DNA from: Terriglobales bacterium
Lineage (GTDB): Bacteria; Acidobacteriota; Terriglobia; Terriglobales; Acidobacteriaceae
Assembly: GCA_035691485.1 (NCBI GenBank)
Contig: DASSIZ010000058.1
Location: forward strand, 1-41,802
Reading direction: 5' to 3'
DNA length: 41,802 nt
Shown here: piece after piece, positions 10,413 through 19,067 of the stretch
How positions within the stretch are numbered: position 1 is the stretch's first letter
Layout: each line of letters opens with the position of its first letter
Made by a program: the position numbers and the translations under genes
The notes under the pieces: model-generated
Seen by the model: the letters and a program-made list of their open reading frames with translations, nothing else
Told to the model about the DNA's origin: nothing
Databases searched by the model: none

Positions 10413-12188
10413 ATGAGCACATCTACGCAGATTCCTGCCAGCGGTCAAGGCTTAGTGCAGATTTCATCGCTCGAGGACATGATCCGCCAGCGTGTTGCCG
10501 AAGAGCGCGCGCGCCTGGAAAAAGAGGCGGGCGTGGTTCACAAGCAGGTACACCACTTCCATAAGCCCATTGAGCACACCTTCACCAAGGAGCAGCGACA
10601 CAAGACCACGCTGCTTTTTGGCGGCCTGACGTGGAAGCACGAAAAGCTGATCCACGGCGCCCTGGAGGGCCTTGGTTACCGCTGCGAAGTGGTGCCGGTG
10701 CCCGACGTCAAAGCTTTCCAGTTGGGCAAGGAATACGGCAACAACGGCCAGTGCAATCCGACCTATTTCACGGTCGGAAACCTGGTGCAGTACCTGCAGA
10801 AGCTGGAGGAATCCGGCGTCCGGCGAGAAGACCTGCTGAACAACTACATCTTCCTCACCGCCGGCGCGTGCGGGCCGTGCCGCTTCGGGATGTACGAAGC
10901 CGAGTACCGGCTGGCGCTGCGCAATGCCGGTTTTGACGGCTTCCGGGTGATGTTGTTCCAGCAGTCCGGCGGCCTGAACCAGAGCGAAGCCGAAGCCGGG
11001 CTGTGCATGAACCTGGACTTCTTCCTCAACCTGCTGAACGCGATGAACATGGGCGACGTGATCAACGAGATCGCGCACCAGATCCGTCCGTTCGAGGTCA
11101 ATGCCGGCGAAACCGATGCCATCCTGGACGAGTGCGTCGACTACATGCACGAAGTCTTAAAGAAGAAGTCACCGTGGTCAATCGAGGGAGCGTTGGGCAA
11201 GCTTGGGCAGAAGATCCCGATGAAGGGGACGGTCGAGTACCTTGGCAAGTTCCTGAACCAGCTCTACAGCGACGACTACGTGACCGCGTTGAACCACGTT
11301 CGCGACCGCTTTAACACCATCAAGGTAGACCGGCTGAGGGTGAAGCCGATCGTGAAGATCACGGGCGAGTTCTGGGCGCAGACTACCGAAGGCGACGGCA
11401 ACTTCAACATGTTCCCGTTCCTGGTGAGGGAGGGCGCGCAGATCATCGTGGAGCCGGTCGGCACCTGGATCATGTACATGATCCACCAGGTAGTGCAGAA
11501 GATCCGGGACACCAAGGGCCTGGAAGAAGGCGCGGTCCTGCCTCCGGCGTGGCGCCTGGACAAGCAGGCGAAGATCGAACTGAACTACCGGCAGAAGCTG
11601 GCCAAGCTGAAGGTGGCGGAAGTCATCTTCGCGCGCGAGTACCACAAGATCATTGACTCGCTGGGTGGCACGGCACACCGGCTGGTGAACCAGTACGAAC
11701 TGCAGCGCCTCGGACATCCTTATTACAACTCGCGCGCCGGCGGCGGCGAAGGCCACCTGGAAGTGGCGAAGAACATTTATTACTCAAACAAGGAACTGTG
11801 CCACATGGTGCTTTCGCTGAAGCCGTTCGGCTGCATGCCGTCGACCCAATCGGACGGAGCGCAGTCGGCGGTGGTGGCGCATTACAAGGACATGATCTTC
11901 CTGCCCATCGAAACTTCGGGTGAAGGCGAGATCAACGCCCACAGCCGGGTCCAGATGGCGCTCGGGGAGGCGAAGGCGAAGGCGAAGATCGAGATGAAGG
12001 AAGTGCTGGGGAAGGTCGGCAAGACCGCCGACGAACTGCACGCCTTCGTGGAAGCGCATCCGGAAATGCAGGCGGCGCTGTACAAGGTGCCGAAGTACAA
12101 GGGCGTGATCGGCACGGCGCCGAATTTCGCCATCCACGTCGCCGAGAAGATGGGCGCGCAAGTGCCGTACCACCAGGAAGCTCATTAG
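10413..12188 (+). CDS. 2-hydroxyacyl-CoA dehydratase D-component-like (HgdB/double-cubane-type) protein
   Basis: The 591-aa cytoplasmic protein resembles the HgdB-like C-terminal module of large activase/dehydratase proteins. After an N-terminal helix and a His-rich loop (about 43-55), the core starts at KTTLLFGGLTWKHEKLIHGA. Candidate cluster ligands are Cys114 (NNGQCNPTYF) and Cys153/Cys156 (GACGPCRFG), with Cys463 and Cys474 in the conserved end motif PFGCMPSTQSDG. In this family, radical dehydration or ATP-driven reduction needs a one-electron activase. That partner is encoded by the next gene 88 bp downstream. Substrate is unknown; the split into a separate subunit differs from the common single-chain form of about 1400 aa. 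The ATG at 10413 has GGTGAGGAA just upstream. Confidence 0.8.
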   Translation: MSTSTQIPASGQGLVQISSLEDMIRQRVAEERARLEKEAGVVHKQVHHFHKPIEHTFTKEQRHKTTLLFGGLTWKHEKLIHGALEGLGYRCEVVPVPDVKAFQLGKEYGNNGQCNPTYFTVGNLVQYLQKLEESGVRREDLLNNYIFLTAGACGPCRFGMYEAEYRLALRNAGFDGFRVMLFQQSGGLNQSEAEAGLCMNLDFFLNLLNAMNMGDVINEIAHQIRPFEVNAGETDAILDECVDYMHEVLKKKSPWSIEGALGKLGQKIPMKGTVEYLGKFLNQLYSDDYVTALNHVRDRFNTIKVDRLRVKPIVKITGEFWAQTTEGDGNFNMFPFLVREGAQIIVEPVGTWIMYMIHQVVQKIRDTKGLEEGAVLPPAWRLDKQAKIELNYRQKLAKLKVAEVIFAREYHKIIDSLGGTAHRLVNQYELQRLGHPYYNSRAGGGEGHLEVAKNIYYSNKELCHMVLSLKPFGCMPSTQSDGAQSAVVAHYKDMIFLPIETSGEGEINAHSRVQMALGEAKAKAKIEMKEVLGKVGKTADELHAFVEAHPEMQAALYKVPKYKGVIGTAPNFAIHVAEKMGAQVPYHQEAH

Positions 12189-12190
12189 CA

Positions 12191-12262
12191 ACGTTTCACG
12201 TTTCAAGTTTCATGTTTCACGTGTCCGCAGCCACGTGAAACGCGAAACGAGAAACCTCGAAA
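12191..12262. repeat. Iterated-word foldback element (TGAAAC class) inside the dehydratase operon
   Basis: Left arm (12191-12222) ACGTTTCACGTTTCAAGTTT plus CATGTTTCACGTG. Right arm (12231-12262) CACGTGAAACGCGAAACGAG plus AAACCTCGAAACG. Only 8 bp lie between, so a hairpin of about 30 bp per arm with mismatches is likely. It fills the gap between the two subunit genes and ends five bases before the Shine-Dalgarno of the second. Confidence 0.8.
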
Positions 12263-12276
12263 CGCTGAGAGGACAA

Positions 12277-15200
12277 ATGCCCGGACTGACCGAAAAGGCT
12301 GACCCGCAGAAAAAGTACGACCAGCTCTGGATGGGGTTGGATGTTGGTTCCACCACCGTCAAGGTCGTCATCATTGACGGCAACACCGACGACATCCTGT
12401 GGGCGGACTACCAGCGCCACGAGACCAAGCAGCCGGAGAAGGCCATCGAGATGCTGAAAGCCATCTCCGCCGACTTCCCCAACACGCCGACGGAGAATTT
12501 CCGGGCGTTCATCACCGGGTCGGGCGGCTCGGGGATCGCCAAGCACATTGGCGCGAAGTTCGTGCAGGAAGTCAACGCGGTTTCGCTGGCGGTAGAAAAG
12601 CTTTACCCGCAGTGCGGGTCGGTCATCGAGCTTGGCGGACAGGACGCCAAGATCATCATCTTTAAGGAAGACCCCGAGACCGGCAAGAAGAAGAAGCTGC
12701 CGTCGATGAACGATAAGTGCGCCGGCGGCACGGGCGCGGTGATTGACAAGATCAATGCCAAGCTCCGCATCCCTTCCGACCAGCTCTGCCAGATGGGCTA
12801 CAAGGGTCTGAAGCTGCACCCGGTGGCGGGCAAGTGCGGGGTGTTTGCCGAGACCGACATCAACGGCCTGCAGAAGCAGGGCGTCCCTCCCGATGAGCTG
12901 ATGGCGTCGCTGTTTGAGTCCATCGTGCAGCAGAACCTGTCAGTTTTGACGCGCGGCAACACGCTGCGCCCGGTGGTTCTCCTGCTGGGCGGGCCGAATT
13001 GCTACATCAAGGGCATGCGCGATTGCTGGAAAGTGAACATCCCGAAGATATGGGAAGAGCGCAATTACCCGCTGCCCGAGGGCGTGAACCCAGAAGAGCT
13101 GATCACCACGCCTGACAATGCGCAGTACTTTGCCTGCATCGGAGCGGTGGAGTACGGCAAGTCGGAGGATCCGGGCATCGGCCTCTATACCGGGTTCGAA
13201 AAGCTGGAGTGGTATATCACCGAGGGCCGGGCGCAGGAGAAAGCGAAGAAGGGCGGAGCGCAGGCGCTTGCCAAGTCGCCGGAAGAGCTTGACGAGTTCA
13301 AGACGAAATACACCAAGAAGAAATTTATTGCGAGCACGTTCCAGCCCGGGCAGGTGGTGGAAGGCTTCATCGGGATCGACGGCGGGTCGACCTCGACGAA
13401 GGCGGTGCTGGTGGACAAGGACCGCAACGTGCTGTGCAAGACCTACCAGCTCTCGAAGGGAAACCCGATCGAAGACACGCAAGAAGTGGTGGCAAAAGTA
13501 GCCAAGCAGGTCAGCGATCAAGGGGCAACCCTTAAAGTGTTAGGTGTAGGAACGACCGGCTACGCCAAGGACATCCTGAAGGACGCCGTGGGGGCCGACG
13601 TGGCGCTGGTGGAAACCGTCGCGCACACCCAGGCTGCGCTTCACTTCTACGCCGACGCGGACGTAATCTGCGACGTGGGCGGCCAGGACATCAAGATCAT
13701 CATCCTGAAAGATGGGCGGGTGAAGGACTTCAAGCTGAACACGCAATGCTCGGCGGGCAACGGTTACTTCCTGCAGGGGACCTGCGAGAGCTTCGGCTTC
13801 AAGGTGGAGGAATTTGCCGACATCGCCTTCAACGCCAAGGGCTACCCGCAGTTCGGTTACGGCTGCGCGGTGTTCATGCAGTCCGACATCGTGGACTTCC
13901 AGCGCCAGGGTTGGAAGCCGGAAGAGATCATGGCGGGGCTGTGCAACGTGCTGCCGAAGAACATCTGGCTGTACGTGTCGCAGATTCCGAACCTGTCGGC
14001 GATCGGGCGCAAGTTCATTTTGCAGGGCGGAACGCAGCACAACCTGGCGGCTGTGAAGTCGCAGGTGGACTTCATCGAGTCACGCTTCAAGGGCAAGGAA
14101 ATCAAGCCGGAGGTGATTGTCCACCAGCACTGCGGGGAAGCGGGCGCCATCGGTTGCGCCTTTGAAGCGGTGCGGTTGTGGGAGAACGGCAAGCAGACGA
14201 CGTTCATCGGGCTTGACCAAGTGGCCTCGATCAGCTTTACCACCACGCGCAACGAAGCCACGCGCTGCTATTTCTGCAAGAACAAATGCCTGCGCACGTT
14301 CATCGATGTGACGACGATGACGCCGAACCCGAACTACAAGCCGCCGGTGAAGACCAAGGTGCCGCTGGCCGACGGCGCGCAGCGGTTGATCATCGCCACC
14401 TGCGAGAAGGGAACGGTGGAGAACGTCGAGGAGATGCGCGTCATCAAGGGCGACATCGACGCCATCAAGAAAGAAAACCCGAACCTGGTGGAGATCGCAG
14501 CCAAGGCGGCATTCAAGAGCTACGAGCCACCGGTGGTGGCCGACCCGCTGCCCAAGCTGCAATTCACGGCGGCGCAGAAGAAACGCGCTGAGCTGATGAA
14601 GAAGCGCTCGGAACTGAAGATCGGCATGCCGAAGGCGCTGAACATGTACTCCTGCGGACCGTTCTTCACCGCCTACTTCGAATCGCTGGGGGTGAAAGCG
14701 GAAAACCTGATCTGGTCGGAGTACACCAGCGAGCAGCTTTACAAGGAAGGCGCGAAGCGCGGCGCGATTGACCCGTGCTTCCCGTCCAAGGTCGGCATTC
14801 CGCACGTGCACAACCTGCTCTACGCCATTCATCCGAAGAAGCAGCTGGACATCATCTTCTTCCCGATGATCGATTCGCTGCCCACCTTCCTGGTGAAGAC
14901 GCAGAGCTCGCGCGCCTGTCCGACGGTGACGGCCACGCCGGCGTCGGTGAAAGCCGCGTTCACCAAGGAGTCCGACCTGTTCACGGAAAAGGGCGTGATC
15001 TGGAAGGACACGCTCATCGAGCTGACCGATCCCAAGGTCGCGCATCGCCAGATGTACGACGACTGGAAAGAGATCCTCGGCTTGAGCGAGGAGGAGAACT
15101 ACCGCGCCGTGGAGCAGGGCTTCCAGGCGATGCTGAGGTTCGACAACGAGATCATGCGCGGCACCGCCCGCGAGGTGCTGAAGAAGCTGGAACGCGAGGA

Positions 15201-15873
15201 CAAGCTCGGCATCGTGCTGCTGGGGCGGCCGTACCACAACGATCCTGGCATCAACCACGAAATCCTGGAGGAATTCCAGAAGCTGGGTTACCCGATCTTC
15301 TCCCAGGACTCGCTGCCGCTGGATGACGAGATCATCTGGAAGCTGTTTGGAGACGAAGTCAAGATGGGCGTGATCTCGCACCCGCTGGACGTCAGCGACG
15401 CGTGGAAGAACTCGTACTCGGAGAACACGACGCGCAAGGTGTGGGCGGCGAAGTATATCGCGCGCCACCCGAACCTGGTGGCGCTGGAGCTTTCCAGCTT
15501 CAAGTGCGGCCACGACGCGCCGATCTACACGGTGATCGAGGAAGTCGTGGAGCACTCCGGCACACCATACTTCTGCTTCAAGGACATCGACGAGAACAAG
15601 CCGACCGGGTCGATCAAGATCCGGGTCGAAACCATCGGCTACTTCCTGAAGCGCTACCGCGAAGACATGGTGCGCAACAACCAGAAGCAGCTTACGGTGG
15701 AAGAGCAGCTCAAGCAATTCGAGCAGCGCCTGCGTCACGAATTAACTTTGGCCGCCAGTGTCGGCTCCAAGGCGGGTTGCTGTGGCACGGAAGAAACAGC
15801 ACCCGCGGAGCTGATATCGATCGCCGGCGCGGAGCAGCCGTCGCAGGACATGGTGGAAATGGCGGGAGACTGA
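12277..15873 (+). CDS. Tandem acyl-CoA dehydratase activase / DUF2229 protein (BcrA/BadF/HgdC-type ATPase, two copies)
   Basis: The 1198-aa protein carries two ASKHA ATPase domains. The first (about 16-295) has GLDVGSTTVK, ELGGQDAKII and the cluster-bridging cysteines Cys148 (NDKCAGGTG) and Cys187 (KCGVFAETD). The second (about 362-630) has GIDGGSTSTKA, DVGGQDIKII, Cys491 (NTQCSAGNG) and Cys530 (GCAVFMQSD). A Cys motif C-x2-C-x3-C (664-671) leads into the DUF2229 part, with YSCGPFF and DPCFPSKVG. Homologous HgdC dimers hold one [4Fe-4S] between subunits and use ATP to push electrons into the dehydratase; with both domains in one chain, the pair may be internal. I chose the ATG at 12277 (GAGAGGA upstream); an in-frame GTG at 12235 lies inside the repeat. 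It is coupled to the preceding HgdB-like gene. Confidence 0.87.
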   Translation: MPGLTEKADPQKKYDQLWMGLDVGSTTVKVVIIDGNTDDILWADYQRHETKQPEKAIEMLKAISADFPNTPTENFRAFITGSGGSGIAKHIGAKFVQEVNAVSLAVEKLYPQCGSVIELGGQDAKIIIFKEDPETGKKKKLPSMNDKCAGGTGAVIDKINAKLRIPSDQLCQMGYKGLKLHPVAGKCGVFAETDINGLQKQGVPPDELMASLFESIVQQNLSVLTRGNTLRPVVLLLGGPNCYIKGMRDCWKVNIPKIWEERNYPLPEGVNPEELITTPDNAQYFACIGAVEYGKSEDPGIGLYTGFEKLEWYITEGRAQEKAKKGGAQALAKSPEELDEFKTKYTKKKFIASTFQPGQVVEGFIGIDGGSTSTKAVLVDKDRNVLCKTYQLSKGNPIEDTQEVVAKVAKQVSDQGATLKVLGVGTTGYAKDILKDAVGADVALVETVAHTQAALHFYADADVICDVGGQDIKIIILKDGRVKDFKLNTQCSAGNGYFLQGTCESFGFKVEEFADIAFNAKGYPQFGYGCAVFMQSDIVDFQRQGWKPEEIMAGLCNVLPKNIWLYVSQIPNLSAIGRKFILQGGTQHNLAAVKSQVDFIESRFKGKEIKPEVIVHQHCGEAGAIGCAFEAVRLWENGKQTTFIGLDQVASISFTTTRNEATRCYFCKNKCLRTFIDVTTMTPNPNYKPPVKTKVPLADGAQRLIIATCEKGTVENVEEMRVIKGDIDAIKKENPNLVEIAAKAAFKSYEPPVVADPLPKLQFTAAQKKRAELMKKRSELKIGMPKALNMYSCGPFFTAYFESLGVKAENLIWSEYTSEQLYKEGAKRGAIDPCFPSKVGIPHVHNLLYAIHPKKQLDIIFFPMIDSLPTFLVKTQSSRACPTVTATPASVKAAFTKESDLFTEKGVIWKDTLIELTDPKVAHRQMYDDWKEILGLSEEENYRAVEQGFQAMLRFDNEIMRGTAREVLKKLEREDKLGIVLLGRPYHNDPGINHEILEEFQKLGYPIFSQDSLPLDDEIIWKLFGDEVKMGVISHPLDVSDAWKNSYSENTTRKVWAAKYIARHPNLVALELSSFKCGHDAPIYTVIEEVVEHSGTPYFCFKDIDENKPTGSIKIRVETIGYFLKRYREDMVRNNQKQLTVEEQLKQFEQRLRHELTLAASVGSKAGCCGTEETAPAELISIAGAEQPSQDMVEMAGD

Positions 15874-16028: not shown

Positions 16029-16508
16029 ATGGCAACCGCGTCCACTAAAGCCCACTACGTTCCCGCCGGGTATCACACCGCGACCCCGTACCTGATGATC
16101 AGCAAGGGCAAGGCGGCCCAAGCGCTGGACTGGTACCGGGAGGTGTTCGGAGCGGCGGAAGTGATGCGCTTTCCGATGCCGGACGGCCGCATCGGGCACG
16201 CTGAGACCCAGATCGGGGACTCCCATATCATGCTGGCCGACGAATACCCGGAAATGGGCTACCAGGGCCCGGAAACGCTGGGCGGAAGCCCGGGGTTGAT
16301 CATGCTGTACGTCGAAAACGTCGATTCGGTGTTCAAGAGAGCGATCGAGCATGGCGCCAAGGTCAAGCAAGAGGTGAAAGATCAGTTCTACGGAGACCGC
16401 AACGGCACCATTACCGATCCGTTCGGGCATCACTGGACGCTCTCGACGCACTTCGAGGATGTCACTCCCGAAGAGATGAAGCGCCGCATGGCGTCCATGC
16501 AGAAGTAA
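16029..16508 (+). CDS. VOC-superfamily (glyoxalase/PhnB-like) protein
   Basis: The 159-aa protein has the two beta-alpha-beta-beta-beta modules of the vicinal oxygen chelate fold. The first runs TPYLMISKGKAAQALDWYRE to GRIGHAETQIGDSHIMLADE; the second GLIMLYVENVDSVFKRAIEHG to FYGDRNGTITDPFGHHWTLS. The DPFGHHW and DRNGTITDP motifs are typical of the PhnB/YfhN-like subgroup, which has no settled enzymatic role. It is not glyoxalase I by sequence. The ATG has a strong Shine-Dalgarno (GGGGAGGAGG) seven bases upstream, so translation should be efficient. It is monocistronic, bounded by hairpins at 15924 and 16539. Confidence 0.85.
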   Translation: MATASTKAHYVPAGYHTATPYLMISKGKAAQALDWYREVFGAAEVMRFPMPDGRIGHAETQIGDSHIMLADEYPEMGYQGPETLGGSPGLIMLYVENVDSVFKRAIEHGAKVKQEVKDQFYGDRNGTITDPFGHHWTLSTHFEDVTPEEMKRRMASMQK

Positions 16509-17105: not shown

Positions 17106-17480
17106 ATGTCCACCGCCTCCGAAGCCAATCCCGGCATGGTTCCCGACGAGCTGAAGCAAGAGCCTCGATCCAAAGGCCTGACCACGGTGCGCAAGAAGAA
17201 GCCGAAAGAGCTGGCGGTGATCACCGAGTGCTGCACCGGATGCGCGGGGTCGCCGGCCTGCGTCGAATATTGTCCGGTGGAAGACTGCATGTTCTGGGTC
17301 CCGGATGAAGACCATCCGCCCTTCGGCCGCATCCAGGTCGATCCGATTCTCTGCATCGGCTGCAAGAAGTGCACCAGCAAGGGTCCGGATGGCGCCTTCC
17401 TCGACGGCTGCCCGTGGGACGCCATCGTCATGGTGGACACGGTCGAAGTGGAGAAGGAAGTCGGCGTGATGCCGTACTGA
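17106..17480 (+). CDS. Ferredoxin-type protein with two [4Fe-4S] motifs
   Basis: The 124-aa cytoplasmic protein has a basic 40-residue N-terminal extension, then a first cluster motif (Cys43-x2-Cys46-x5-Cys52-x3-Cys56, with extra Cys at 42 and 61) and a second (Cys83-x2-Cys86-x2-Cys89 plus Cys102-Pro). The sequence CTGCAGSPACVEYCPVEDC is unusual: the first motif has five residues between the second and third Cys instead of two, as in 7Fe/8Fe-type ferredoxins. It is an electron carrier whose partners are unknown; DUF420 and two further small genes follow in the same direction with short gaps, and the activase operon needing low-potential electrons lies 1.2 kb upstream. The start ATG at 17106 has only a weak ribosome-binding site. 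Confidence 0.82.
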   Translation: MSTASEANPGMVPDELKQEPRSKGLTTVRKKKPKELAVITECCTGCAGSPACVEYCPVEDCMFWVPDEDHPPFGRIQVDPILCIGCKKCTSKGPDGAFLDGCPWDAIVMVDTVEVEKEVGVMPY

Positions 17481-18203: not shown

Positions 18204-19067
18204 TTGCCTTTACCGACCCCGATCGTGAAAGACGCAAACTTCGAGCACAAGCGGATGTCGGTGCGGAACCGGATCCTGTTCTTCGTGGTGGCGTGGGCGA
18301 TCGTGCTGCTGCCGTTTCTGTTCTGGCACAGCACCTGGTTCGGACGCCAGCTCACCGACGGGGAACTCGACCAGTACATCCACGACCAGCAAAAGCCTCG
18401 CCACATTCAGCACGCGTTGGTGCAACTCGGCGAGCGCATGGGACGGCACGATCCAAGCGCGCAACGTTGGTATCTGGACGCGGTTCGCCTGGCCTCCAGC
18501 CCAGTGGAGGAAATCCGCAACACGGACGCGTGGATCATGGGCCAGGACAACACGCGAGCGGAATTTCACCAGGCGCTGCTGCCGATGCTGAAGGATCCGT
18601 CCCCGATGGTCCGCTACAACGCCGCGCTGTCGCTGGTTCGATTCGGCGATGCCAGCGGGCGTCCGCAGTTGATCGAGATGCTGCAGCCGGTGAAGGTGAA
18701 TGCGCCGCACGCCGGAAGGGTGACAGACCTGGCGAAGGTGGGGGAAGCGATTCGTCAGAACGGAACGATTGCGAAGCTCGACGTCAACGGATCGACGGTC
18801 GAAGCGCGGTCGCCGATTGCGGGCCGGGTGCGCTCGTTCAGCGTGACGCGAGGGGCGCAAGTGCAGGCCGGAAGCGGCCTGGCGGTGATGGATCCGGGTC
18901 CTGAGCAGGTGTGGGAGGCGCTACGGGCGCTCTACCTGGTGGGCGAGAAGGAAGATTTGCCGGCGGTGCGGGCTTACGAGAGGGGCCAGGCAAACATGCC
19001 GGACCGCGTGCGAGACCAGGCCGTGCAGACAGAAAAGGCGATCGCGGAGCGGGAGCGAGGCAGGTAG
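18204..19067 (+). CDS. Membrane-anchored HEAT-repeat protein with embedded biotinyl/lipoyl-like domain
   Basis: The 287-aa product has one membrane helix (22-41), so most of it faces the periplasm. HEAT-like helices follow (about 62-160: IQHALVQLGERMG, FHQALLPMLKDPSPMVRYNA). A barrel-sandwich segment (about 164-230) has two half-motifs, APHAGRVTDLAKVGEAIRQN and ARSPIAGRVRSFSVTRGAQV, like the lipoyl-type hairpins of membrane-fusion proteins and without the modifiable Lys. A last helical repeat (234-285) closes the chain. I know no named family with this order. The start is TTG at 18204 with GAGGGA just before it; an ATG at 18255 would leave a shorter cytoplasmic tail. It is last of four co-directional genes beginning with the ferredoxin. 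Confidence 0.7.
   Translation: MPLPTPIVKDANFEHKRMSVRNRILFFVVAWAIVLLPFLFWHSTWFGRQLTDGELDQYIHDQQKPRHIQHALVQLGERMGRHDPSAQRWYLDAVRLASSPVEEIRNTDAWIMGQDNTRAEFHQALLPMLKDPSPMVRYNAALSLVRFGDASGRPQLIEMLQPVKVNAPHAGRVTDLAKVGEAIRQNGTIAKLDVNGSTVEARSPIAGRVRSFSVTRGAQVQAGSGLAVMDPGPEQVWEALRALYLVGEKEDLPAVRAYERGQANMPDRVRDQAVQTEKAIAERERGR

Follow-up and report, generated by a model that had tools for sequence, protein, structure and literature searches.

What reaction does an ATP-driven reductase with its own pair of activase domains carry out in a bacterium that otherwise looks respiratory? The question is raised by two adjacent genes in a 41,802-nucleotide stretch of a Terriglobales bacterium (Acidobacteriota; GenBank assembly GCA_035691485.1, contig DASSIZ010000058.1, positions 1 to 41,802), the whole of which is called the window here. 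One gene encodes an HgdB-like protein of 591 amino acids (aa), the other a 1198-aa protein with two activase domains and a DUF2229 region. The window also holds genes for cytochrome b, a Rieske protein, a COX15-like protein and ferrochelatase, in keeping with the respiratory host described in an earlier note on this DNA. Sequence comparisons lead us to propose, with moderate confidence, that the pair is a candidate two-subunit, ATP-dependent ester-to-ether lipid reductase of the benzoyl-CoA reductase/2-hydroxyacyl-CoA dehydratase (BCR/HAD; CoA, coenzyme A) radical family. We favour ester-to-ether reduction on two grounds: the sister clade is the plasmalogen synthase PlsA/PlsR, which converts ester lipids of membranes to ether lipids, and the pair is in some genomes linked to genes for homologues of archaeal tetraether synthase, here called Tes-like. 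The features of the pair are the following.

10413..12188, forward strand: HgdB-like reductase subunit gene, 591 aa, ATG start, with conserved C114, C153, C156 and C474
12189..12276, forward strand: spacer of 88 bp between the HgdB-like and activase-DUF2229 genes
12277..15873, forward strand: activase-activase-DUF2229 gene, 1198 aa from the ATG (1212 aa from an alternative upstream GTG at 12235)
12322..13266, forward strand: activase domain 1, about residues 16-330 (borders approximate), with C148 and C187
13369..14166, forward strand: activase domain 2, residues 365-630, with C491 and C530
14266..14403, forward strand: four-cysteine site C664-x2-C667-x3-C671 ... C709, candidate relay [4Fe-4S] cluster
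14617..15315, forward strand: DUF2229 (PF09989) match in an HgdB-like fold, site C834, C881 and C1077 (C1077 beyond the Pfam match)

A distinct subfamily next to plasmalogen synthase

The window genome carries two DUF2229 systems over the cut-off: the pair described here, whose subfamily we call A-type, and a paralogue called C41-type. To place them, the DUF2229 and HgdB parts were concatenated for 44 rows and 813 columns (LG+C20; three long or odd rows omitted; named reference sequences taken from plasmid collection records). The 24 A-type rows fall on one side of the tree with support 100/100, the nine rows of the PlsA clade are held together at 100/99, and A-type and PlsA rows are jointly separated from the rest at 100/100. 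The PlsA-clade rows are those of Listeria, Fusobacterium, Collinsella, Haliovirga, Acetoanaerobium and Subdoligranulum and three fused acidobacterial proteins; identification of this clade as plasmalogen synthase rests on Listeria, as given in PMC9702350, and on PMC12838417, with the other members assigned by the tree. Grouping A-type with C41-type was rejected (p 7.3e-5, approximately unbiased test), and both a quick tree with the long rows retained and a FastTree run agree with the 44-row tree. By sequence, A-type is a distinct subfamily, sister to the PlsA/PlsR clade and not within it. The close clustering with a characterised enzyme on which the earlier note had let its proposal hang was thus not seen.

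PlsA proteins and the large protein of the window share 28-31% of their residues, near the 30% that PMC13274423 takes as its cut-off. Fused PlsA-clade copies reside together with A-type in three genomes (G111, with L156 and L179, G143 and G072; G, L and C numbers are our labels for genomes, loci and contigs), and because both occur in the same genomes, A-type is a paralogue and not an orthologue of PlsA. The two share the activase-activase-DUF2229 and HgdB-like modules, the domain order and the 11 cysteines discussed below. A-type differs in having the HgdB-like gene first and in the size of its product, 591 aa as against 404 in Fusobacterium and 458 in Subdoligranulum.

Two HgdB-type modules on two chains

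In Pfam, the large protein matches PF01869 in two stretches (E 2.5e-72 for the protein) and PF09989 at residues 781-1013 (E 4e-45). With a BadF/BadG/BcrA/BcrD domain and a conserved cysteine pair, it has by sequence the make-up of an activase. For the 591-aa protein alone no convincing match was found in Pfam, NCBIfam or PDB sequences. Its sole Pfam line, Phage_Mu_Gam, lies below the cut-off, and no 2-hydroxyacyl-CoA dehydratase family model appears up to E 0.1 in Pfam or E 0.01 in NCBIfam.

Structure prediction was among the checks that the earlier note had suggested. An AlphaFold2 model of the 591-aa protein (44 sequences; predicted local distance difference test, pLDDT, 78; predicted TM-score 0.78) has chains of DCCP, benzoyl-CoA reductase and (R)-2-hydroxyisocaproyl-CoA dehydratase as its top structures (3o3m_B: Z 8.3 with a root-mean-square deviation of 5.0 over 278 residues, as against Z 6.8 for the best unrelated chain). 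For residues 636-1198 of the large protein, the model (48 sequences, pLDDT 82) finds the same families more clearly (Z 11.8, deviation 4.4 over 271 residues; first unrelated chain, Z 6.7), and both models match HadBC, BzdNO and DCCP. The best Foldseek E-values are weak (6.2e-4 and 3.8e-4) with TM-scores of about 0.3, and the fold assignment rests on the family occupying rows 1-6 and 1-10. Because both models match these families, both halves look like HgdB-type reductase modules, each with a predicted HgdB-type fold of the BCR/HAD radical family and a conserved three-cysteine site for a putative [4Fe-4S] cluster (C114, C156 and C474; C834, C881 and C1077). Fold, activase and three-cysteine site are held in common with 2-hydroxyacyl-CoA dehydratases, benzoyl-CoA reductases and DCCP; in those systems the activases are generally separate proteins and DUF2229 is not known to occur.

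The 591-aa protein has 360 confirmed relatives in the genome contig collection, of which the best 80 were retained (NCBI labels: 74 Acidobacteriota, two Dadabacteria and one each of Zixibacterium, Marinimicrobium, Acidimicrobiia and unclassified). Both open reading frames of the pair are confirmed, and in all 66 scorable loci among these 80 and the window the large gene lies 3' of the small one on the same strand, with a gap below 300 bp in 56. The earlier note had read this order correctly and had taken the separation as unusual against a common single chain of about 1400 aa. Fused proteins do exist: 24 non-A-type proteins of 1390-1673 aa carry both parts on one chain among the loci scanned, many of them fetched because they were fused. 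Split forms are common too, and every A-type pair read is split, with no A-type protein carrying both parts on one chain among the same loci. Fusobacterium has the split form (985 + 404 aa), whereas the proteins of Listeria, Collinsella and Haliovirga are fused; PlsA and PlsR are likewise fused in Enterococcus, Lactococcus and Bifidobacterium, and plasmalogen synthase of Clostridium perfringens is a two-gene system, plsA-plsR, according to PMC12838417. Since plsA-plsR also comprises two genes and A-type is split as a rule, the arrangement is ordinary, and we rejected it as a novelty.

Departures from the plain two-gene form were also seen. In a divergent A-like subgroup (L185, L186, L187) the large protein is divided into an activase open reading frame, which ends with the C-x2-C-x3-C site, and a DUF2229 open reading frame. 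In L185 and L186 a TetR regulator closest to FadR models stands just upstream. The A-type HgdB-like genes of G465, G316, G229 and G128 are in two pieces or contain one stop and are broken genes or assembly errors. A single open frame of about 1790-1810 aa was reported over the HgdB-like match in G517, G431, G509 and G423, at odds with the TAG stop read between the two genes in L013 (G517) and L020 (G509).

Conserved cysteines and predicted cofactors

In the large protein, eleven positions (C148, C187, C491, C530, C664, C667, C671, C709, C834, C881 and C1077) carry cysteine throughout the 59 A-type and 10 PlsA-clade proteins compared, and the two activase pairs named in the earlier note, C148/C187 and C491/C530, are among them. 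Of the five cysteines it had listed for the HgdB-like subunit, C114, C153, C156 and C474 are invariant among 44 HgdB-like proteins (alignment A1), whereas C463 is not conserved there and is ruled out as a cluster ligand. The loss of cluster cysteines in orthologues, its other stated risk, was therefore not seen.

A comparison across subfamilies separates these four. C114, C156 and C474 are present in 33/33, 33/33 and 32/33 A-type rows, in all 10 of the PlsA clade and all five of C41-type, and in 18/18, 17/18 and 16/18 of the other fused types. C153 is confined to A-type (32/33, and 3/3 in the divergent subgroup), as against 1/10 in the PlsA clade, 0/5 in C41-type and 1/18 in the others. In the window protein the three cysteine sites read QCNPTYF, ACGPCRFG and PFGCMPSTQ. 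GPCRFG occurs in 33 of 33 A-type rows and in none of the 10 PlsA-clade rows; conversely, GG-x-CR is found in eight of the 10 PlsA-clade rows and one of 33 A-type rows. With a further difference behind the third HgdB cysteine, taken up below, these motifs suggest an A-type active site related to that of PlsA yet not identical to it.

For BzdO, PMC11971306 describes a catalytic [4Fe-4S] cluster held by Cys95, Cys128, Cys380 and water, and for BzdN and DCCP six cysteines that bind a double cubane [8Fe-9S] cluster. That six-cysteine set is absent here: the HgdB-like subunit has four conserved cysteines and the DUF2229 part three besides the four-cysteine site. The predicted cofactors, a bridging activase cluster, a four-cysteine relay and two open-site clusters, would befit an ATP-driven one-electron reductase, judging by sequence and family knowledge.

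Association with Tes-like genes

Tes-like radical SAM genes lie next to the pair in a few genomes. At L069:4557-13439 a same-strand cluster runs from a Tes-like gene through those for a 331-aa radical SAM protein and the HgdB-like subunit to that for the activase protein, with gaps of 113, 160 and 72 bp. The Tes-like product, a 693-aa radical SAM protein, scores 324 bits (E 1.4e-96) with NF045702, the NCBIfam model of tetraether lipid synthase Tes, below its cut-off of 450, and matches the sequence of PDB 7tol at E 1e-63. Elsewhere the Tes-like gene follows the pair on the same strand, at 1.2 kb in L056, 0.7 kb in L072 and 49 bp after the large gene in G412. L056 and L072 belong to one sub-lineage with the unlinked L033 and L041 (support 1.0), and L069 and G412 fall outside it, in A-type trees of which some inner forks are not firm. 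The 80 loci amount to 1.04 Mb, in which one gene per 5-Mb genome would be expected about 0.2 times by chance, a figure of arithmetic and not a computed control.

The A-type pair and Tes-like genes also tend to occur in the same genomes. Of 297 genomes of Acidobacteriota, 26 carry A-type, scored as 39% identity or more with the 591-aa protein, and 161 carry Tes-like (E<=1e-30); Tes-like is present in 24 of the 26 A-type genomes as against 137 of the 271 others (Fisher p 1.8e-5). At E<1e-200 the counts are 23 of 26 (not G049, G316 and G222) versus three of 35 for genomes that lack A-type but have another HgdB type (p 1.4e-10). These p-values are too small because kinship is ignored in them. The 26 A-type genomes span 11 families, and a strong Tes-like match occurs in an A-type genome in nine of them. 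Of 28 A-type genomes reached via loci from the best 80, 24 have a Tes-like gene at E<1e-180, including the Zixibacterium at 60% identity; the two Dadabacteria have weak or other matches and Marinimicrobium and G514 none. In family f30, many of the Tes-like copies for which an identity is listed share just 52-53% with the query. A-type matches below 1e-30 come from about 96 of the 237 genomes in the family of G503, and matches at E<=1e-6 from 106.

A paralogous pair and a second Tes homologue

The C41-type paralogue (G000:C41; L085:6585-10975, minus strand) likewise combines an activase-activase-DUF2229 gene with a separate HgdB-like gene. It differs from A-type in its reversed gene order, its place in another clade and its identity of 29-37% over three separate stretches. 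Its distribution follows that of a second Tes homologue, 36-39% identical to the Tes-like query; the sole copy scanned, L277, scores 581 bits with NF045702, above the cut-off. In 48 genomes picked for having A- or C41-type, most of them typed by open-frame length and hit strength and not by tree, the second Tes is present in 27 of 30 with C41-type as against one of 18 without, and Tes-like in 41 of 46 with A-type as against neither of two without (p 0.02). The crossed pairings give p 0.09 (C41-type with Tes-like) and p 0.5 (A-type with second Tes). The table omits G271, G513, whose coordinates equal those of G001, and G517-G520, untyped for C41-type. G271 has an A-like pair (L187) and C41-type, with Tes-like but without second Tes, and the Tes-like gene of G451 is a fragment. 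The window genome carries all four components, A-type, C41-type, Tes-like and second Tes, on contigs C58, C41, C89 and C55. In G007 (L272:10342-19901) the A-type and C41-type pairs stand divergently, 327 bp apart.

Relation to published lipid traits

Ether lipids are a patchy trait in this phylum. Of 17 cultures from subdivisions 1 and 3 in which iso-diabolic acid was abundant, two held its glycerol ether together with a branched glycerol dialkyl glycerol tetraether (brGDGT), as summarized in PMC13274423. In genus g31, of the window's family, the pattern of a widespread Tes-like gene (61 of 62 genomes) and a patchy A-type pair (11 of 62) parallels these published traits, iso-diabolic acid being widespread and ether lipids patchy. 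According to PMC8941075, E. aggregans makes brGDGTs at low oxygen and has one Tes homologue, 32% identical to an archaeal Tes, and for the homologues of Koribacter and Solibacter the figures are 42 and 40%; we infer that the first is of the Tes-like type and the others of the second Tes type. Koribacter is reported to make tetraesters (PMC13274423), which argues that second Tes alone does not give ethers.

PlsAR and Tes homologues have already been proposed for brGDGT formation in Solibacter usitatus (PMC10087280). A further comparable system is the glycerol ester reductase Ger of Thermotoga maritima (Tmari_0479) and Desulfatibacillum alkenivorans, described in PMC13274423 and PMC11150832 as a PlsA homologue with two PF01869 domains; as the same papers tell it, Ger expressed in Escherichia coli yields alkyl ethers. 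Ger and PlsA are said in PMC13274423 to be inseparable by sequence, and Ger homologues are not among the Acidobacteriota counts given in the excerpted part of a Black Sea survey (PMC11868695). None of the published titles and abstract openings covered describes the A-type subfamily; a 2022 Ger/Mss study may already list A-type genes, and the wording of PMC13274423 implies that mss and ger were found in Acidobacteria in it.

Neighbouring genes

Clustering of the neighbours in 81 loci brought up no further recurrent functional partner, the largest cluster being an antisense reading; by eye, without a family scan, no CoA ligase, thiolase or ring-cleavage gene was recognised in the 25 largest clusters. 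In the window, a VOC-family (glyoxalase-like) gene at 16029-16508 lies 3' of the pair. A homologue stands between the two genes in 11 of 80 loci and downstream in L190, and it is missing from L003, L004 and L189; as its position is kept in few loci, it is a weak candidate for a functional partner. A 124-aa ferredoxin-like protein (17106-17480; 4Fe-4S dicluster matches below cut-off) is a possible electron donor of the pair. Its gene is kept downstream in L004, L189, L190, L192 and L041 (70% identity), and none was found in the other 78 genome-contig loci, many of them short.

Further observations concern single loci. Close to DUF420 and cytochrome genes, positions 18204-19067 of the window encode a HEAT-repeat protein, one segment of which is biotinyl/lipoyl-like. 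Within the large gene lies a 552-aa antisense open reading frame (14080-15738, minus strand), typical of GC-rich coding DNA and marked by nothing as a gene. In two non-acidobacterial loci (L076:6132-7763 and L079:2334-5815), sensor-kinase-like and response-regulator genes were recognised by eye just upstream of the pair.

Proposed reaction and alternative readings

In the proposed mechanism, a [4Fe-4S] cluster bound by C148, C187, C491 and C530 between the fused activase domains would be reduced by a ferredoxin-type donor. Driven by ATP hydrolysis, single electrons of very low potential would pass by way of the C664/C667/C671/C709 cluster and reach the three-cysteine sites in DUF2229 and in the HgdB-like subunit. 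There the ester carbonyl of glycerol-bound acyl chains might be reduced in one-electron steps with loss of water, giving a vinyl or alkyl ether. A Tes-like radical SAM enzyme would work alongside, joining chains into membrane-spanning lipids. The earlier note had spoken of an unknown ATP-driven reduction or dehydration; the reductase does appear to be an intact ATP-driven enzyme of the BCR/HAD type, and its unknown reaction can probably be narrowed to ether-lipid formation.

Several observations weigh against this assignment. A-type lies on a long stem (1.1 changes per site) outside the PlsA clade, and the Asn-His that follows the third HgdB cysteine in 10 of 10 PlsA-clade rows, a motif defined within this analysis, occurs in none of 33 A-type rows; on both grounds its substrate may differ from that of PlsA. 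Linkage to Tes-like is rare, at three of 80 loci by tblastn, many of them short, plus G412 by coordinates, and in the window genome the Tes-like gene is on a different contig. Co-occurrence is confounded by shared descent: in g31 the Tes-like gene is near-universal irrespective of A-type, G049, G316, G333, G514 and G021 have A-type without Tes-like at the limits used, and G222, G330 and G332 have weak matches only. Ether lipids of subdivision 4 are ascribed in PMC10087280 to unrelated elb genes. Finally, although Ger2 of D. alkenivorans is closely homologous to Ger, it formed no ethers in E. coli according to PMC11150832, a reminder that homology alone does not fix the product. Given the distribution, the motif differences and the effects of kinship, the pair may instead catalyse another lipid reaction or act on an unrelated substrate.

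One alternative is a catabolic enzyme with CoA thioesters as substrates, either a 2-hydroxyacyl-CoA dehydratase or an aryl-CoA reductase, and the family fold of both subunits with a three-cysteine site like that of BzdO (PMC11971306) would suit it. We regard it as improbable, given that no CoA ligase, thiolase or ring-cleavage gene was recognised by eye in the 25 largest neighbour clusters, that no dehydratase model of Pfam or NCBIfam matches the 591-aa protein and that the nearest clade works on lipids. An enzyme of the lipid pathway without ether formation, feeding low-potential electrons to Tes-like or reducing another bond of the membrane-spanning lipid, would predict the Tes-like linkage and co-occurrence equally and would agree with the missing PlsA-clade motif. 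It is nevertheless rather unlikely, as Tes-like is independent of A-type in g31 and a mere electron carrier should have no need of a second subunit that brings a three-cysteine site of its own.

Corrinoid proteins and methanogenesis, too, depend on activases of this sort, and the pair might be an ATP-driven reductase or activator unrelated to lipids, acting on a cofactor, a quinone or a secondary metabolite. That most loci lack a recurrent partner speaks for this option, as does the VOC-family gene in some of them, but the sister clade PlsA/PlsR and the Tes-like linkage make it unlikely; the NCBIfam match to methanogenesis marker 15 lies far below cut-off. Ester-to-ether reduction thus remains the reading we prefer.

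Implications for ether lipids in Acidobacteriota

As a more tentative extension, to which we give somewhat less than an even chance, A-type and Tes-like may form a dedicated two-step module, in which chains are joined and esters reduced to ethers, that makes brGDGTs and the ethers of iso-diabolic acid in Acidobacteriota and a handful of further phyla, with C41-type and second Tes as a parallel module. If this is true, some Acidobacteria with iso-diabolic acid would make ether lipids and others not because the former have A-type and the latter lack it.

Lipids of the brGDGT type serve geologists as thermometers of the past, and the pair may make their ether bonds. The enzyme responsible in Acidobacteria is unproven according to PMC13274423, PMC8941075 and PMC10087280, and the gene pair, being patchy in the same places as the ether trait and sometimes clustered with Tes-like, offers a direct candidate. 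Its study also bears on how a class of oxygen-sensitive reductases may work in respiratory soil bacteria.

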